From Deltaproteobacteria bacterium (GTDB taxonomy: Bacteria > Myxococcota_A > UBA796 > JAFGLY01), in contig JAFGLY010000041.1 of assembly GCA_016927815.1 (NCBI GenBank), positions 1 through 45,701 on the forward strand: 45,701 bases of DNA, in the 5' to 3' direction. Shown here one piece after another: positions 2,491-45,701 of the stretch. The notes beneath the pieces are model-generated. The model was not told where the DNA came from, made no database searches, and worked only from the letters and a program-made list of their open reading frames with translations. The translations under genes and the position numbers were made by a program. Within the stretch, counting starts at the first letter, position 1, and the number at the start of each line of letters is the position of its first letter.

Positions 2491-5400
2491 ATGATCACGA
2501 CCCGCTACGAGCCTCGATTCCGTGGCTTCCACGACCTCACCCGCTGGCGGGTGCGCGAGATCCTGCTCGTCTCGACGGTATACGACGCGTTCGTGCTGGA
2601 GGAGGACCGCGCCCTCGGAGAGCGGCTGACGAGCGAGTACCTCGAGCTGGACCTCCGCTCGGTGCCCCGGATCACGCGCGCTTCCACCGGCCGTCGTGCC
2701 CTGGGTTTGCTGGCCCGGTCGTCTCCGGACCGCGGCGAGGACGCCGGCGGTGAGGCCGAGCGCCCGCGGCGCTCCGTTCGTCGCCCCTGCGACCTCGTCC
2801 TGTGCATGTCCCGCCTGCCCGACATGGCGGCCGCCGAGTTCCATACCCGCCTCAGGGCCGCCCACCCGCGCCTGCCGCTCGCCTTCCTGACCTACGGAGC
2901 CCTGGATGCGGGCCTGCTCGACGCCCTGGCCGGGGTGCCGGGCGGCGACCGGGCCTTCTACTGGCATCGAGACGCCAGCCTGCTGCTCGCCATCGTGAAG
3001 CTGGTCGAGGACGCCCGGAACGTGGCCCACGACACGCGGGCCGGGTCGCAGGTCATCCTGCTCGTGGAGGACACGCCCCGGTTCTACTCCCTCCTCCTGC
3101 CGATCCTCTACACGGAGATCTTCACCCAGACGCGGCGCCTGCTGTCCGAGAGCGTGAACGAGATGCACCGCATCCTCCGCATGCGCGCCCGGCCCAAGGT
3201 GCTGCTGGCCACCAACCTCGCACAGGCCCGCCAGATCCTCGACAGGTACGCCTACAACACGATCGGGATCGTCTCCGACGTCCGGTTCCCGCAAGAGCCC
3301 GGGGCCGAACCCGATCCCGAGGCGGGCTTCGTGCTGGCCCGGGAAGCCCGGAGGACGGTGCCCGACATGCCGGTCCTCCTGCAGTCGTCCGAGGAGGGCA
3401 TGGAGGCGCGGGTGCGAGCGCTGGGGCTGCAGTGGGTGGACAAGCAAAGCGGCACGCTGGCCCGGGACATCCGCGCCTGCCTGCTCCAGACCTTCGGGTT
3501 CGGCGACTTCGTGTTCCGGATGCCCGACGGCCGCGAGGTGGGCCGTGCCGGCAACCTCGCCTCCCTAGAGCAGCAGATCCGGCGCGTGCCCGTGGAGTCT
3601 CTCGCCTACCACGGCCGCAGCAACCACTTCTCCACCTGGCTGCGCGCCCGGACCGAGTTCCGCCTCGCCGAGGCGCTGAGGCCCTGGAAGGTCACGGACT
3701 GGCCCGATCCCGAGATGCTCCGGACGGCCATGCTCGACGCCATCCGGGCGTTCACGCACTCGGATCGGGGTGGCATGGTGAGGGAGTACGTGCCGGACCT
3801 GCCCCCGGGTGGCCAGGATCTGCTCCGGATCGGCTCCGGATCCCTCGGAGGCAAGGGCCGGGGCCTGGCGTTCATGAACGCGCTCCTCGCGCGGTCCCCC
3901 GTGGCGGCTGCGCACGAGGACGTGGACATCCGGATCCCGGAGACCTGCATCCTGTGCACCGACGTCTTCGAGTCGTTCCTGGAGCAGAACCGCCTCCAGG
4001 ACGCCGTGGCGTGGGATCTCGACGACGCGGCGGTGGCCCGCCGCTTCCTGGCCGGGGCCATCCCTCCGAGGACCCGCCACCTGTTGAGGACGCTCCTGGA
4101 TCGGTTCCACGACCCCCTCGCGGTACGCTCCTCCTCGCTGCTCGAGGACAACCAGGTCTTTCCGTTCTCCGGGGTCTACAGTACCTATCTGCTGGCGAAC
4201 AACCATCCCGATCCGGAGGTCCGACTCTTCCAGCTGGAGGACGCCATCCGCCTCGTGTGGGCCTCCATGTTCTTCCGAACGCCGCGTGCGTTCGTCCGCA
4301 ACACCGGGTACCGCCTCGACGAGGAGCGCATGGCCGTGCTCGTCCAGGTCGTGGCCGGGTCCCGCCGCGGCGACCTGTGGTACCCCACCTTCTCTGGGGC
4401 GGCGCGGTCCCTCAATGTCTACCCGTTCCCGGGCATCCCACCCGAGGAGGGCGCGGCCGACCTCGCGGTCGGACTCGGAACGGCCCTGGCGAGCGGCGAG
4501 CGCGTGTTCCACTTCTGCCCGGCGCGTCCCCAGGTCGACCCGCCGTACGCCACCGCCGAAGAGTACGCTGCCAACTCCCAGTCCGCGTTCTGGGCCGTGG
4601 ATCTCTCCCAGCCGGCCGCCGAGCTGAACCAGGCAGGGGGCTTCTCGCTCCGGAGGCTGCCCCTCGAACGGGCCGAGGCGGACGGGGTCCTGCCCCTCGT
4701 CGCTTCGACCTTCGTCCCGGAGGACGGGGCGATCCGTGATACCGTCTCGGTCGAGGGGCCCCGCGTGGTGCGCTTCGCCCAGGTGCTCAAGCACCGTTCC
4801 TTCCCGCTGCCCGCGATCCTCCGCGAGTTCCTCCAGGCCGGCCGCCGCTCGTTCGGCTGCGACGTGGAGGTGGAGTTCGCCGTGGATCTCAAGCCCGAGG
4901 CCCGCTCGGTGTTCCACCTCCTCCAGGTGCGTCCCCTGGAGGTGGCGGCCGATCCGGGGCTCGGCGGTGAGGAGGCGTTGTCCGCTCCCGATCTCGTCTG
5001 CGCGTCCACCCATGCCGTGGGGCACGGCCGCTGGAGCGATCTGTACGACGTGCTGGTCCTGGACCCCGAGCGCTTCGACTCCCTGCACACCCGGGACATC
5101 GCCCTCGAGATCGAGTCCCTCAACCGGGGCCTCGCCGCGCAGGACCGGCCGTACCTGCTCATCGGGTTTGGCCGGTGGGGGTCGAGGGACCCCTCCCTGG
5201 GGGTCCCGGTGCGCTGGGAGCAGATCTCCCACGCCCGCGTGCTGGTGGAATCCGATCGCCGCGACCTCTGGGTGGAGCCCTCGCACGGCAGCCACTTCCT
5301 GCAGGACATGCTGGCTTTCCGCCTCGGCTTCCTGTTCGTCCGGGAGGGCAGGGCCCCGAACCGCGTGGACTGGACGTTCCTGGAGTCCGTCCGCCCGCTC

Positions 5401-5514: not shown

Positions 5515-6335
5515 GGCACGCCGGTGGCGACGATGTTGGCGATGTTCGTGAAGACCATCGTGTAGTCGTACATGTCGTAGGTCACGACCCTCATCCCGTC
5601 GTCGAGGAGGAGGATGGAGGGGTACCCGTAGATGTGCATGTGTGTGGCCATGACCTGCTCGCTGTCAGCCAGGACCGCGATCTCGGGGTGGGGGTAGACC
5701 GAGTACCAGGTGGCGACGGTGGTGGCGTCGGCCGGGTTGCCGCCCTGGTCCTGGTCGAGGATGGTGACCCAGTAGACGGTTCCGTTCGCTACCGCCCCGG
5801 GCACCGCCTCCCATCCCTCCTCCTCTGCGTACTGGTCCCACATCGAGGCCTCTCCGTTGAGCCACCTCGCCACCTCGTGGCAGTAGTAGCACGCCTCCTC
5901 CGAGAGCACGACGGCGATGTACCGGCCGTGGCCGGCGTAGTCGTAGAGATCGACCACCTCGCCGAACTGGTCCACGCCCTTGAACCGGTAGATGACCTCG
6001 CCCGGGTCGAGCGTCTCGGACCAGTCGGGGCCGACGATGTCGTTCTTGTCCCCGTAGTAGGGCCAGCCGCCCTCGTAGATGCCGCTCGAGGCGTCGAGCG
6101 GGTCTGTGCCGACGGCGACCTCGTCGCCGTCGAGGTACCCGTCCCCGTCGGTGTCGGCGACCGTGCCGTCGGTGCCGTGCTCCAGCTCCAGGCCGTCGTC
6201 CAGGCCGTCGCCGTCGGTGTCGGCCTCCTCCGGATCGGTGCCGTTCTGTTTCTCCTCGCGATCGCTCACGCCGTCCCCGTCGGTGTCGGCGCCGCAGGCT
6301 GCAAGGAGGAGGAAACAGGGAATCGCGATGCGCAT
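5511..6335 (-). CDS. Lipoprotein with TSP3 calcium repeats and thioredoxin-like domain
   Basis: 274 aa, from the ATG at 6335 with GGAG six nt upstream. The N-terminus is a lipoprotein signal with lipobox LLAAC and Cys14 as the lipidation site. Residues 17-75 carry three thrombospondin type 3 calcium-binding repeats (DTDGDG at 17, 39 and 61). From about 115 a thioredoxin-like fold follows, with strand IAVVLSEEA and a CYYC redox pair at Cys149/Cys152, then a YGYPSILLLDDG stretch that corresponds to the cis-proline region. A periplasmic or surface-anchored thiol oxidoreductase or AhpC/TSA-like protein is inferred. The calcium repeats probably act as a rigid spacer. It is the last gene of a minus-strand series after glpD. 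Confidence 0.85.
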   Translation of the reverse strand: MRIAIPCFLLLAACGADTDGDGVSDREEKQNGTDPEEADTDGDGLDDGLELEHGTDGTVADTDGDGYLDGDEVAVGTDPLDASSGIYEGGWPYYGDKNDIVGPDWSETLDPGEVIYRFKGVDQFGEVVDLYDYAGHGRYIAVVLSEEACYYCHEVARWLNGEASMWDQYAEEEGWEAVPGAVANGTVYWVTILDQDQGGNPADATTVATWYSVYPHPEIAVLADSEQVMATHMHIYGYPSILLLDDGMRVVTYDMYDYTMVFTNIANIVATGVP

Positions 6336-25471: not shown

Positions 25472-26200
25472 CTAGCGAAACAGGGCCACGCGCAGACCGG
25501 CCTGGAGGCGAACCGCCTCCACGAGCGCGGGATGGGCGCCGTCTGAGCGGTAGTTGTGGGCGGCACGCCGGGTCACAGCGAGGAGATCGGCCACCTCAGG
25601 CAGGCCCAGACGCGGCCAGGCGATGGCCACCACGGCCCGTCGTGCGGCCACCGCGCGTGGGAGGTTGGAGGCCAGATCCGGAAGGCCCACCGCCGCCGCC
25701 GCGCCGTCGGCCAAGAAAGCCGGATCGTCGGAGGGCTGGAGGTCCGGTACGCCCAGGAGGGCGAGCCACGCATCGCGCCCGATCCCCGGGGCGAGGGTGC
25801 CTGCCCGCGCACGTGCGCCGTCGCCCAGGACGCGCAGGCCCACGAGGTCCGGCAGGGCGCTGGCGTCGTGGAACGGATCCCGGTCCCCGGGGTCCGCCAG
25901 GATGGACCGGAGCCGGTCCGGAAGGCCGTCGGACACGGCCTCGAGGCGGGTCCGCCCCAGGCGCGGCAGGCCCAGAGTCCGGCGCAGGGCCACGGCCGTG
26001 GCCTGGGCCAGGCGGCCCGCGTCGGGGCGGCCGCAGGCCGCCAGGATCCTCAGGTTCGACCCAGAGGCTCGAAACCCGAGGATGCCCCAGGAATCGCCCA
26101 CGTCCAGCACGATCGAGGCCAGGGCCCGTCGAGCGGCCAGGGTGGGTGCGAACGGACGGGGCTCCGGGCTGTGGAGGTGGAGGAGGAAGGCGTGGGTCAT
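25472..26200 (-). CDS. Transposase-like (HUH/Y1, RAYT-type) relic with C-terminal HTH
   Basis: 242 aa from the ATG at 26200; an ATG at 26212 would add MQPS. The N-terminal half has the layout of small REP-associated Y1 transposase proteins: PEERR-like RRALASIVLDV, the strand WGILGFRASGSNLRILAACG, then AGRLAQATAVALRRTLG and PFHDASALPDLVGLRVLG. The metal-binding His-x-His expected in the strand is replaced by SNLRI (about 48-52), so catalysis is unlikely. The C-terminal region (PEVADLLAVTRRAAHNYRSD) fits a helix-turn-helix with HPALVEAVRLQAGLRVAL after it. This looks like a domesticated transposase now acting as a DNA-binding protein, but the assignment rests on pattern memory and is tentative. 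It diverges from icmF across 193 nt. Confidence 0.55.
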   Translation of the reverse strand: MTHAFLLHLHSPEPRPFAPTLAARRALASIVLDVGDSWGILGFRASGSNLRILAACGRPDAGRLAQATAVALRRTLGLPRLGRTRLEAVSDGLPDRLRSILADPGDRDPFHDASALPDLVGLRVLGDGARARAGTLAPGIGRDAWLALLGVPDLQPSDDPAFLADGAAAAVGLPDLASNLPRAVAARRAVVAIAWPRLGLPEVADLLAVTRRAAHNYRSDGAHPALVEAVRLQAGLRVALFR

Positions 26201-26231
26201 CGATGGCTGCATGGAACGAGGAGGCTTGGTG

Positions 26232-41622: not shown

Positions 41623-43770
41623 ATGCGCAAGGGTCTCGACGCCATCCTGCGGCCCCGCTCGGTGGCCATCCTCGGTGCGAGTCGGAAGCCCGGCTCCATC
41701 GGGCGCGAACTCATCCACAACCTCATCGACTTCGGCTTCCAGGGGCCGATCTACCCGGTCAACCCCCAGCGTCCACACATCCACTCCATCCGGGCCTACG
41801 CGGGCGTGGAGGAGATCCCGGATCCCGTGGACCTCGCGGTGGTGGTGGTGCCGCGCGACCACGTGCTCGGCGTGGTGGAGGCCTGCGTCCGCAAGGGCAT
41901 CCCGGGCCTCGTGGTCATCTCGGCCGGGTTCCGGGAGGCGGGCAAGGAGGGCACCCGGCTCGAGGCGAAGATCGCCCGGACCGCCCGGGAGGGCGGCATG
42001 CGCATGCTCGGGCCCAACTGCATGGGCGTGGTGAACACGGACCCGGAGGTGGCCATGAACGCGGCGTTCGGAGCCACGCAGCCGCTGGTGGGCCACGCCG
42101 CGTTCGCCAGCCAGTCCGGCGCACTCGGGGAGGTGGTCATCGCGGCCGCCCGGCGCGTGGGTCTGGGCGTCTCCTCGTTCGTGTCGCTCGGCAACAAGGC
42201 GGACCTCGAGGGCAACGACCTCCTCGAGTGGTGGGAGACCGATCCCAACACCAACGTGATCCTGCTGTACCTGGAGGACTTCGGCGACACCCACCGGTTC
42301 GCCGCGCTGGCCCGCCGCATCACCCGGGAGGCGGGCAAGCCCATCCTCGCGGTCAAGTCCGGCCGTACCCGCCAGGGCGCCGCCGCGGCGGCGTCCCACA
42401 CCGGCGCCCTCGCCGGGGGCGACACGGCGGCGTCCTCGCTGTTCGCCACCTCCGGCGTGATCCGGTGCAACACGGTCCAGGAGCTCTTCGAGCTGGGGCT
42501 CGCCTTCACCAGCCAGCCCCTGCCCAGGGGCCGGCGGGTGGCCGTGCTCACCAACGCCGGCGGGCCCGGCATCATGGCCACCGACGCGCTCGTCAGCGAC
42601 GGGTTCGAGATGGCGGATCTCAAGCCGGAGACCCGCGCCGCGCTCGACCAGATCGCGCCCAAGGCCGCGCCGGTCCAGAACCCGGTGGACCTCATCGCGT
42701 CGGCCGACCCGGACAAGTACCGGGCCGCCACGGAGCTGCTGCTGGCCGATCCCGAGGTGGACGCCTTGCTCCCGCTCTTCGTCAGTCCCGTGGCCTCCGA
42801 TCCCACGGCCGTGGCCCGCGGCATCGTGGCGGGCGTGGCCGCGGGCCTCGCGCGGACCGAGGTGCCCAAGCCCGTGCTCTCCTGCTTCATGGGCCGCGAC
42901 CAGGGTGGCGAGGCTGCCGCCGTGCTCCAGGCCGCGCACATCCCGGTCTACTCCTTCCCGGAGAGCGCGGTCGAGGCCCTGGGCGCCATGGACCGCTTCC
43001 GGGAGTGGCGCTGCCGGCCCGAGGAGCGGATCGTGCGTTTCCAGGTGGACCGCGCCCGAGCTCGGGAGCAGATCTCCACGGCCCGGGCAGCCCACCGGAC
43101 GTGGCTGACGGGCCCTGAGGTCTTCGACCTCCTCATGGCCTACGGCATCCCCACGGTCCCCAGCCGGTCCGTGTCCACCCCGGAGGAGGCCATCGCCTTC
43201 GCCGAGGAGGTGGGGTTCCCGCTCGTGCTCAAGCTGCTGGCCGAGGACGTGGTCCACAAGTCCGACGTGGGTGCCGTGCAGCTCGACCTGAGGTCGGCCC
43301 GCGAGGTGAAGGGCGCGTTCTGGGAGATCACCGAGACCGTGCGGCAGCGGAAGCTCGTGCCGGAGGATCGCCCCCTTGCCTTCCTCGCCCAGAAGATGGT
43401 GAGCGGTGGACGGGAGGTGATCCTGGGCGCGGTCGAGGACCCCGTGGTGGGCCACCTCCTCATGTTCGGGCTCGGCGGGGTGTTCGTGGAACTCATGGAG
43501 GACGTGGTCTTCCGGGTCCTGCCGATCACCGACGTGGACGCCCGGGAGATGGTCCGGAGCGTCAAGGGATTCCCGCTCCTGCAGGGGTACCGGGGCGAGC
43601 CGGCGGCCGACGTCGGGTCCGTGGAGGAGGTCCTCCAGCGGATGAGCCAGCTCGTCGGCGACTTCCCCGAGATCGCCGAGATGGACCTGAATCCGTTCGT
43701 GGTGCTGCCCCAGGGCCGAGGCGGCCTCGCGGTGGACGCCCGCATCCGGCTGGGGCCGAAGCGCTCGTAG
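41623..43770 (+). CDS. ADP-forming acyl-CoA synthetase, fused alpha-beta
   Basis: 715 aa, ATG at 41623 after GGAGGTCC. Residues 8-125 form a CoA-binding Rossmann domain (SVAILGASRKPGSIG). Residues 150-460 are the succinyl-CoA-synthetase-like ligase part with the phosphohistidine site His259 in SHTGALAGGD. Residues 490-715 are an ATP-grasp domain (GFPLVLKLLAEDVVHKSDVG, GVFVELMEDVVFRV, EMDLNPFVV). This order, with both subunits in one chain, is typical of bacterial ADP-forming acetate-CoA ligase homologues. They can make ATP from acyl-CoA, or activate an acid using ATP. Substrate preference, such as acetate, propionate or branched acids, cannot be read here. Near icmF, a short-chain acyl-CoA role is attractive. 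Confidence 0.9.
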   Translation: MRKGLDAILRPRSVAILGASRKPGSIGRELIHNLIDFGFQGPIYPVNPQRPHIHSIRAYAGVEEIPDPVDLAVVVVPRDHVLGVVEACVRKGIPGLVVISAGFREAGKEGTRLEAKIARTAREGGMRMLGPNCMGVVNTDPEVAMNAAFGATQPLVGHAAFASQSGALGEVVIAAARRVGLGVSSFVSLGNKADLEGNDLLEWWETDPNTNVILLYLEDFGDTHRFAALARRITREAGKPILAVKSGRTRQGAAAAASHTGALAGGDTAASSLFATSGVIRCNTVQELFELGLAFTSQPLPRGRRVAVLTNAGGPGIMATDALVSDGFEMADLKPETRAALDQIAPKAAPVQNPVDLIASADPDKYRAATELLLADPEVDALLPLFVSPVASDPTAVARGIVAGVAAGLARTEVPKPVLSCFMGRDQGGEAAAVLQAAHIPVYSFPESAVEALGAMDRFREWRCRPEERIVRFQVDRARAREQISTARAAHRTWLTGPEVFDLLMAYGIPTVPSRSVSTPEEAIAFAEEVGFPLVLKLLAEDVVHKSDVGAVQLDLRSAREVKGAFWEITETVRQRKLVPEDRPLAFLAQKMVSGGREVILGAVEDPVVGHLLMFGLGGVFVELMEDVVFRVLPITDVDAREMVRSVKGFPLLQGYRGEPAADVGSVEEVLQRMSQLVGDFPEIAEMDLNPFVVLPQGRGGLAVDARIRLGPKRS

Positions 43771-43919: not shown

Positions 43920-43965
43920 GTTGCGATTCGCCGGGTGTGACCGGTCAGGTGGCTCGAATCGCAAC
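43920..43965. repeat. Palindromic repeat, copy 1
   Basis: A 46-bp unit bounded by GTTGCGATTCG (43920-43930) and its perfect inverse CGAATCGCAAC (43955-43965). The centre holds TGACCGGTCA, a perfect 10-bp palindrome. The unit recurs 62 bp downstream with one substitution, so this looks like a REP-like dispersed element. Confidence 0.8.
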
Positions 43966-43981
43966 ACCAGCGGCCAGAAAC

Positions 43982-44027
43982 GTTGCGATTCGCCGGGTGT
44001 GACCGATCAGGTGGCTCGAATCGCAAC
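43982..44027. repeat. Palindromic repeat, copy 2
   Basis: Second 46-bp unit with the same 11-bp terminal inverted repeats (43982-43992 and 44017-44027). The centre reads TGACCGATCA, so the one difference from copy 1 breaks the internal palindrome. The spacing of 62 bp between units and near identity point to recent duplication or selection for the pair. Confidence 0.8.
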
Positions 44028-44093: not shown

Positions 44094-45701
44094 CTACCGC
44101 CCCCCCGTCACCTCCAAGGGGGGAAGGGGAGGGGTCCAGCCGTTGCCGTCCGCGTCGGCCAGGATCGCGCTGGCCAGTGCCCACCCGGTGGCGGCCGACA
44201 CCGGCGACATGGGCTTGGAACCCGTGGCCACCACCACGTACGCCGCATCTTCCACGGGCACGACCTCGAAGGTGGCCGCGGACCCGGGGGTGCTCGCCAC
44301 GGGCACGCCGTTCTCGTAGAGGGTGAGGGTGTCCACAGCGATCCAGGAGGGCCCGAGCGCCCGGACCTCGAGCGTGAAGGGTCCGATCACCTCGGAACCG
44401 GGCTCGGGGTCCATGGAGAGGAACGGGCCGTTGGAGGCGATCGTGCGTCTTTGACGGATGGCCTGTGCGATGAGGCCTGCGTCGAGGTCCGCCGGGTCGG
44501 AGGTGCCCGCGCCGATCCAGGTGAAGGAGAGCCCGGCGCCCAGCCAGTCGTGGCTGTCCGAGGTACCGGTGGGAGCGACGAGGATGCCCCGAGAGACGAG
44601 GTCCAGGTAGAAGTCCACGGCCCGTCCGACCACGCCGCCGTTCAACACCTCCACGGCGTCGAAGTCGCTGCTCCAGTGGTCGCCGTCGGCGATTGCGCCC
44701 TCGGACCAGCCGGCGATCGACGCCAGGCCCGACATGGGGTGGTTGGCCTGGAGGACCACGTCGGGGAAGTGTGCCCGGATCCGGTCGAACTGCTCCTGGG
44801 TGGTCTCGGGGACCAGGATCCACCAGGGGTAGGCACCACCGTTCACCGCCTCGGGGTCCTCCTGGATGTTCCAGGCGTTGAGATGGCCCCGGAGCGTCGG
44901 GGTGATCTCCTCGGAGGTGTTGAGGGCGAGCACGGCAGCGAGCCCCAGTGCGTCCCGGAGCGCGCTGTAGTCCACCACGTGGTCGTGATCCGATGCCGAC
45001 CAGACCTGCAGGCCCACCCCGGCCGCCCCCACGAGGCGATCCTCGATGGGGACGAAGGCGTCGGGGCTGGTCGAGGCATGGCCGTGGAAGTCGGCCTGGA
45101 TCCATCCCTCGGGCGTCCACGCCTGGGCCAGGGGGAGGTCCACCGTGACGGAGCCGCCGCTCGTCACCTCGAACGCGGCCGAGGCGGTCTCGTACCGGGG
45201 ACCGCGCCAGGCCGTCACCTGGTACGCGCCCGGCTCGAGGAGGAGGCTCACCTGGCCGTCCCGGGCCCAGGCGAGCGCGCCGTACCCCGAGGGGTAGCCC
45301 CCGACGAGGGCGGGATCCGCCCAGGAGGGCTCCGCGGGCAGCGAGATCCGGGCTTCGAACGGCAGGTCGTCGCCACTACGGAGCGTGACGGTCCCCGGGG
45401 GGGTGAGGCCAAGTTCGGGACCCGATCCTTCGGTCCAGCCCCAGCCCCGGGCGAACGGGACCGGCTCGGCGCCGTCCCGGAGGCTCTCGAGCGCGAGATC
45501 GCGTACGAAGCCGGCGCCGTGGGGCGGGTAGGCCCCGGCACCCTCCGGCAGGTCGGTCCACAGGCCGGTGCCTCGCCCATCCACCACGAAGGACACGCTC
45601 GTGCCCGCCGGGACGTACGCCCGGATCTCCCCTTCCGCGTTCGTGACCGCGAGCGTCGAGAAGGCGCCGTCCGCCAGGACGGCCACGCGGGCGCCCTCTA
45701 C
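44094..45701 (-). CDS. PHP-domain (CehA/McbA-like) hydrolase, 5' end beyond window
   Basis: Partial. The reading frame stays open to the window edge (through GTA-GAG-GGC at 45701-45690), so at least 535 residues are present and the start lies outside. N-terminal beta domains come first. The PHP part follows with DFHGHASTSPDA, ASDHDHVVDY, NHPMSG and GTSDSHDW, the metal-ligand His/Asp sets of the family. Characterised CehA/McbA-like enzymes hydrolyse esters and carbamates, but most members are unassigned. Because the N-terminus is missing, a signal peptide or lipobox could not be checked. It converges with the acyl-CoA synthetase gene. Confidence 0.85.
   Translation of the reverse strand, partial: VEGARVAVLADGAFSTLAVTNAEGEIRAYVPAGTSVSFVVDGRGTGLWTDLPEGAGAYPPHGAGFVRDLALESLRDGAEPVPFARGWGWTEGSGPELGLTPPGTVTLRSGDDLPFEARISLPAEPSWADPALVGGYPSGYGALAWARDGQVSLLLEPGAYQVTAWRGPRYETASAAFEVTSGGSVTVDLPLAQAWTPEGWIQADFHGHASTSPDAFVPIEDRLVGAAGVGLQVWSASDHDHVVDYSALRDALGLAAVLALNTSEEITPTLRGHLNAWNIQEDPEAVNGGAYPWWILVPETTQEQFDRIRAHFPDVVLQANHPMSGLASIAGWSEGAIADGDHWSSDFDAVEVLNGGVVGRAVDFYLDLVSRGILVAPTGTSDSHDWLGAGLSFTWIGAGTSDPADLDAGLIAQAIRQRRTIASNGPFLSMDPEPGSEVIGPFTLEVRALGPSWIAVDTLTLYENGVPVASTPGSAATFEVVPVEDAAYVVVATGSKPMSPVSAATGWALASAILADADGNGWTPPLPPLEVTGGR

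Follow-up and report, generated by a model that had tools for sequence, protein, structure and literature searches.

IS200/IS605 insertion sequences occur as near-identical mobile copies with hairpins at their ends, and they often carry TnpB. The mechanism by which REP repeats spread is not settled, and the known systems have been gathered through PF01797-type searches and the GT[AG]G foot. In the openly readable parts of the literature, REPs are described as usually exceeding 100 copies per genome (Nunvar 2010, PMC2817692), and in Pseudomonas fluorescens REPINs are already known to form tandem clusters next to RAYT genes (Bertels and Rainey 2011, PMC3116915). The classification of Quentin 2018 (PMC6006769) reports, in the text open to readers, no REPs for subclasses 2.1, 2.3 and 1.2; related literature includes Nunvar 2013 (PMC3686654).

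The window, which is the whole 45,701-nt stretch of DNA analyzed here, holds two palindromic units; they lie between convergent ORFs whose 3' ends, at 43770 (+) and 44094 (-), are separated by 323 bp. The features discussed below are listed by position; contigs are labeled C, genomes G and loci L (for example, L036 is the locus on C120 and L253 is G044:C90).

25472-26221 (approximate), minus strand: degenerate HUH/Y1-like paralogue, 37% identical to the C120 protein and 17.7 kb from the window array
41623-43770, plus strand: CoA-ligase-like gene with CoA_binding_2, Succ_CoA_lig and ATP-grasp_5 domains; 3' end 149 bp before unit 1
43920-43965, no strand: palindromic unit 1, 46 bp, with 11-bp arms (13 bp counting the flanking GT/AC) and central TGACCGGTCA
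43966-43981, no strand: spacer between the units, 16 nt, matching in length the other arrays of this genome
43982-44027, no strand: palindromic unit 2, 46 bp, with one base breaking the central dyad
44094-45686, minus strand: CehA/McbA family metallohydrolase, convergent, 3' end 66 bp after unit 2; the ORF runs off the window and its start may be further upstream

The first-pass annotation had described twin 46-bp palindromes with a 62-bp period, 11-bp terminal inverted repeats and a central palindrome intact in one copy and broken by one base in the other, and each of these points was confirmed. The two imperfect palindromes start 62 bp apart and are 98% identical over 50 nt. The inverted arms, GTTGCGATTCG/CGAATCGCAAC, are 11 bp long and reach 13 bp in unit 1, and the central dyad reads TGACCGGTCA in unit 1 and TGACCGATCA, one base off, in unit 2. 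As single-strand DNA, unit 1 folded at -17.2 kcal/mol (z -5.4), with none of 200 shuffles as good, and both units folded better than shuffles; the window units thus share with REPs and REPINs a short palindrome able to form a hairpin. In the 3.99-Mb genome there are 15 occurrences of the 11-nt arm and none of its reversed control. This count, together with the fold of unit 1, argues that the palindromes are not due to chance. Neither a terminator-like site with a T run nor a match to an Rfam family was found at the window palindromes.

To be a dispersed repeat, the unit should not be unique in the genome, and it was not. A covariance model built from seven units recovered seven full units in three places with one 62-bp period (two in the window, three on C120, one on C184 and one on C162), and beyond these gave only weak matches (E 2.9 or worse). 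All arrays of this genome share the 62-bp period and the 16-nt spacer, and the spacers are near-identical repeats rather than unique inserts. C184 and C162 may represent one locus, since both contigs end within the array and, by eye, overlap by about 60 identical bases. Half-units or relics were found at C120:3368, C19:5827 and C46:8081. The copies at the window, C120 and C184/C162 are dispersed and extragenic, as in REPs and REPINs; the high abundance of those elements was not observed, with seven full units in a draft assembly that may collapse some. When 57 relatives were searched with the covariance model, weak matches appeared in three and none was better; those in G044, G012 and G043 (E 0.02-0.06) look like chance on inspection. 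The exact palindrome gave five solitary matches in contigs of other genomes from unrelated taxa, which is about the number estimated for chance. The repeat family of the window array is seen in the source genome alone.

Other motifs were noted around these sites. A G+C-rich imperfect palindrome of the type CCCTCACCC...CCCTCTCCC...GAGGGG stands beside repeat relics at L036 (C120) 3385-3435 and L039 (C19) 5720-5770, and GGTGTCGG/CCGACACC motifs lie near three family-gene loci (L036 3690-3730, L085 640-690 and L038 4790-4800). CCTCCGACACC, found near C26, C120 and C162, was rejected as a special motif, its genome-wide enrichment being mild (11 versus 6 in the control).

An unannotated ORF encoding a HUH/Y1-like protein was found on C120 at 3804-4571, beginning 159 bp past the three-unit array. 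Its product carries D-T-H-I-H and Y-V-L-R-Q, and is likely, judging from sequence, to be the intact array-linked partner in the source genome, a divergent HUH/Y1 protein with a C-terminal HTH-like domain. Linkage of the repeat to a cognate Y1 transposase gene, a mark of REP and REPIN systems, was observed at C120 and in relatives. The C120 protein had no Pfam or NCBIfam match, including none to Y1_Tnp, and a PF01797 search of the genome yielded no classical Y1_Tnp. The first-pass annotation had tied the palindromes to a HUH/Y1 relic within the window, which was right in kind; that ORF, however, has altered or lost the HxH and Tyr positions, and the intact partner lies on C120. Structure prediction of the window protein alone gave a pLDDT of 41.5, which left the fold unconfirmed, and the prediction was not used. 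The C162 array, with its flank, leads straight into the last ~30 codons of a HUH/Y1-like gene, an arrangement that seems to derive by deletion from an array and its gene. The best paralogue in the genome is 55% identical, unlike the near-identical copies of IS200/IS605. At L090 (C4), positions 2438-2578 encode a partial match to the C120 protein (residues 29-75, 77% identity); it is, from its sequence, a decayed further gene copy, with no adjoining palindromes. Plasmids had no match to the C120 protein, phages none to the family protein of G001, and viral contigs no relative of the family.

Relatives of the C120 protein were found in 28 of the 93 genomes searched, the source genome counted, with up to 16 matches per genome, and a profile search of the phylum found the family in 31 of 282 genomes. 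The proteins are about 260 aa long with an extra C-terminal domain, and this HTH-like domain matched HTH_23 in 11 of 25 members. REP_Tyr_transpos was matched by five of the 25 (best E 1.9e-4) and Y1_Tnp (PF01797) weakly by three, some family loci being above the cut-off in another search. With hhalign, the family profile matched Y1/RAYT proteins at 97% probability, compared with 0.1% for the reversed profile. The HUH motif and catalytic Tyr are both intact in 61 of 66 genes, that of C120 included, and the window copy lacks both. All 26 array-linked proteins carry Y---[QN]--[HRK]H and not the Y---NP signature of RAYT / TnpAREP (class 2). In the tree, 24 of 25 family rows grouped together (94/89), the nearest Y1 rows were of the Y---Q type (L155-L157), and the RAYT-type rows stood apart from the family (98/99) rather than grouping with it; the placement is tentative because of long branches. 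These comparisons suggest that the family is remote kin of the REP-associated transposases. The earlier description of the palindromes as REP/BIME-like pointed in the right direction, with the qualifications that copy number is low, the GT[AG]G foot is absent and the protein falls outside the RAYT-type rows.

Palindrome arrays were surveyed at 65 loci, 60 from relatives and five from the source genome. Strict arrays were concentrated near the genes, with 17 within 300 bp (45.1 kb surveyed), two at 300-600 bp (33.7 kb), one at 600-1200 bp (63.0 kb), none at 1200-2000 bp (78.9 kb) and two beyond (88.2 kb), or three in 230 kb at more than 600 bp from the gene; a few of the strict arrays, for example at L107, consist of low-complexity words and could have arisen by chance. 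By locus, the strict test placed an array within 600 bp of the gene in 17 of 65, and a looser test detected one in 27 of 65. The held-out set had an array in 12 of 40 new loci, whereas the 53.7 kb lying more than 900 bp from the genes contained no array, and nine further family loci had one strict and two loose arrays. As a control, 24 unrelated loci (69 kb) contained no strict and one loose array; classical Y1 loci also bear arrays (two strict and six loose in 24 loci). The arrays are often on the 3' side of the gene. Of 60 loci, 14 had a contig end no more than 300 bp from the gene (3.3 expected), an excess consistent with collapsed repeats. Loci with and without an array did not differ significantly in how often the catalytic motifs were intact (Fisher p 0.64).

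Three genomes have arrays of one sequence and one period both at a family gene and at gene-free sites: the source genome (62 bp), G063 (73 bp) and G001 (63 bp). In G063, the same 73-bp arrays flank the gene on both sides and recur on C315 and C319, that on C315 lying gene-free between convergent ORFs as in the window. In G001, 63-bp arrays occur at the gene and on C208 and C493; here the regular spacing is informative and the count is not, because the 11-mer used is common in other genomes. No empty site, target duplication or excision was seen. A long array of ~10 units with a 51-bp period lies upstream of a family gene at L253, 1050-1560, and at L145 (G063:C361) the reading frame of the gene overlaps, at its 3' end, the array that lies downstream (from 3864 onward).

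The foot of the arm reads GTTG in all seven units of the source genome, in place of the GT[AG]G of known REPs. Across the family the arms vary with lineage, and [GC]TT[GC] was present in 21 of 28 arms, the 28 including those of the loose, low-complexity arrays of L107 and L150. Random 18-mers of the same loci gave a mean of 9.3 and shuffled arms 8.6, and none of 2000 shuffles reached 21. Among held-out arms, 7 of 13 carried the motif (shuffled mean 3.3; 88 of 5000 shuffles reached 7). Over 26 loci, the more alike the proteins, the more alike the arms (Mantel r 0.19, p 0.004). L107 and L150 were left out of the Mantel and discovery spacing tests; L145, whose exact 9-nt arm falls short of the 10 of the loose test, was found by the strict test and added by hand to the foot, Mantel and spacing sets. 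Linkage and co-variation together suggest that the arrays are recognized by the family protein.

The spacing of the units suggested a further regularity. In the discovery set, with one spacing per locus (L204 added; L121 had no usable spacing), values of about 51, 62, 73, 83, 95, 135, 147 and 157 bp were observed, with a Rayleigh R of 0.83 at 10.5 bp and a best period between 8 and 16 of 10.5-10.6. With discovery and held-out sets pooled into 13 merged spacing classes, outliers kept, R was 0.72 at 10.5; random sets reached this value in 2 of 5000 cases at any period and in none at 10.4-10.6, statistics in which related loci are not independent and the idea arose from the same data. The held-out set alone, tested with automatically chosen words, prefers 12.6 (R 0.88; 0.74 at 10.5), and is no independent confirmation of ~10.5 bp because it is mostly 51 bp; 51 and 102 bp fit multiples of 10.5 imperfectly. 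Ordinary direct repeats away from the family genes followed the codon period and had little signal at 10.5 (R 0.20). The data are thus suggestive of spacing near multiples of 10.5 bp, that is, whole helical turns, and such quantization suggests that a protein also binds the units in duplex form, along a single face of the helix.

We consider it likely that the window pair is a small gene-free REPIN-like array, and that a divergent TnpA-Y1 clade recognizes such arrays and probably also spreads them. The family protein would bind the array arms and cut the folded single strand at the [GC]TT[GC] foot or close to it; acting in trans, it would copy or move units or arrays into intergenic sites, of which the convergent gap of the window is an example. 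Tandem growth would follow insertion, and the units would be bound as duplex on one helix face as well. Cleavage and movement are proposed here by analogy with known families. The window array itself is probably a passive insertion, with a possible effect on the two 3' ends. Counting against this reading, arrays occur at a minority of family loci (17/65 strict, 27/65 loose), the window array has no adjoining family gene, and copy number is low. The absence of a GT[AG]G foot, of any link between arrays and intact motifs, and of an observed empty site, target duplication or excision also weighs against it, as does the unconfirmed fold. A wider claim is that these are a new class of REP system, marked by HTH-bearing HUH proteins, arrays with a [GC]TT[GC] foot, and a unit-to-unit distance close to a whole number of helical turns, in which the repeat is read twice, as duplex in phased binding and as single-strand hairpin in cleavage; this is tentative, and on balance we lean slightly against it.

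The HTH-like domain (HTH_23 in 11/25), the dyad symmetry and the near-helical spacing would also suit operator arrays, in which a domesticated HUH-fold regulator binds the palindromes as duplex sites, both next to the gene that encodes it and at a small number of targets. An operator would fit poorly with arrays often 3' of the gene and, in the window, between convergent 3' ends; the retention of catalytic motifs in 61 of 66 genes and the resemblance of C162 to a deletion derivative of array plus gene also argue against it, and we regard it as unlikely. The paired regulator sites that the first-pass annotation offered as its alternative are likewise less likely at the window. The convergent location, strong hairpins and few copies could also reflect passive tandem repeats or transcript-end hairpins that spread by ordinary duplication with no dedicated enzyme. 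The palindromes lack a terminator-like site with a T run, however, and arrays of different sequences in many lineages are strongly linked to one gene family, which makes this quite improbable. Regular palindromic repeats with short spacers recall a CRISPR-like array of repeat and spacer or the attC-like hairpins of integrons, a reading disfavored because the 16-nt spacers are themselves near-identical repeats rather than unique inserts; with no Rfam match either, we give it almost no credence.

The gene family is a clade mostly missed by PF01797-type and GT[AG]G models. Linking arrays to a gene family can reveal repeat-enzyme pairs that have no known foot motif, and several genomes allow comparison of the gene, its cognate arrays and gene-free arrays. 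Should the spacing pattern hold, it would offer a testable hint that duplex binding is involved in the mechanism. In the openly readable main text of the literature, we found no report of the clade, the [GC]TT[GC] foot or the phasing, and the word 'helical' is absent from the searchable text of PMC3116915 and PMC2817692.

In the openly readable text of the papers compared here, the closest counterpart is found among several systems, each of which shares some features. The REPIN/RAYT system (PMC3116915) likewise has hairpin-forming inverted repeat pairs in ordered tandem clusters adjoining a tyrosine transposase gene, with gene-specific repeat classes and extra copies elsewhere; it has hundreds of copies, compared with seven full units here, and our system differs in having no GT[AG]G foot, a protein of another branch and direct-repeat spacing of about whole helical turns. 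REPtron / TnpAREP class 2 (Quentin 2018, PMC6006769; Corneloup 2021, PMC8266576) also links a HUH and Tyr protein to cognate palindromes, with Y---NP there and Y---[QN]--[HRK]H here, and with GT[AG]G there and [GC]TT[GC] here; the HTH-like C-terminal domain is a feature of the present family. TIRYT / subclass 2.1 (Di Nocera 2013, PMC3733652; Quentin 2018, PMC6006769) resembles it in having a Y1 protein with an HTH-like C-terminal extension and inverted-repeat flanks that are not GTAG REPs, and differs in the GGGGWSAS motif of those flanks and its Y---NP motif; REP-like arrays, present here, are not reported for it in the open text of PMC6006769. TnpA-Y1 subclass 1.2 (PMC6006769) shares the Y---Q--HH signature, whereas its proteins, from Cyanobacteria and Bacteroidetes, are ~148 aa long, compared with ~260 aa and a C-terminal domain in the family described here.
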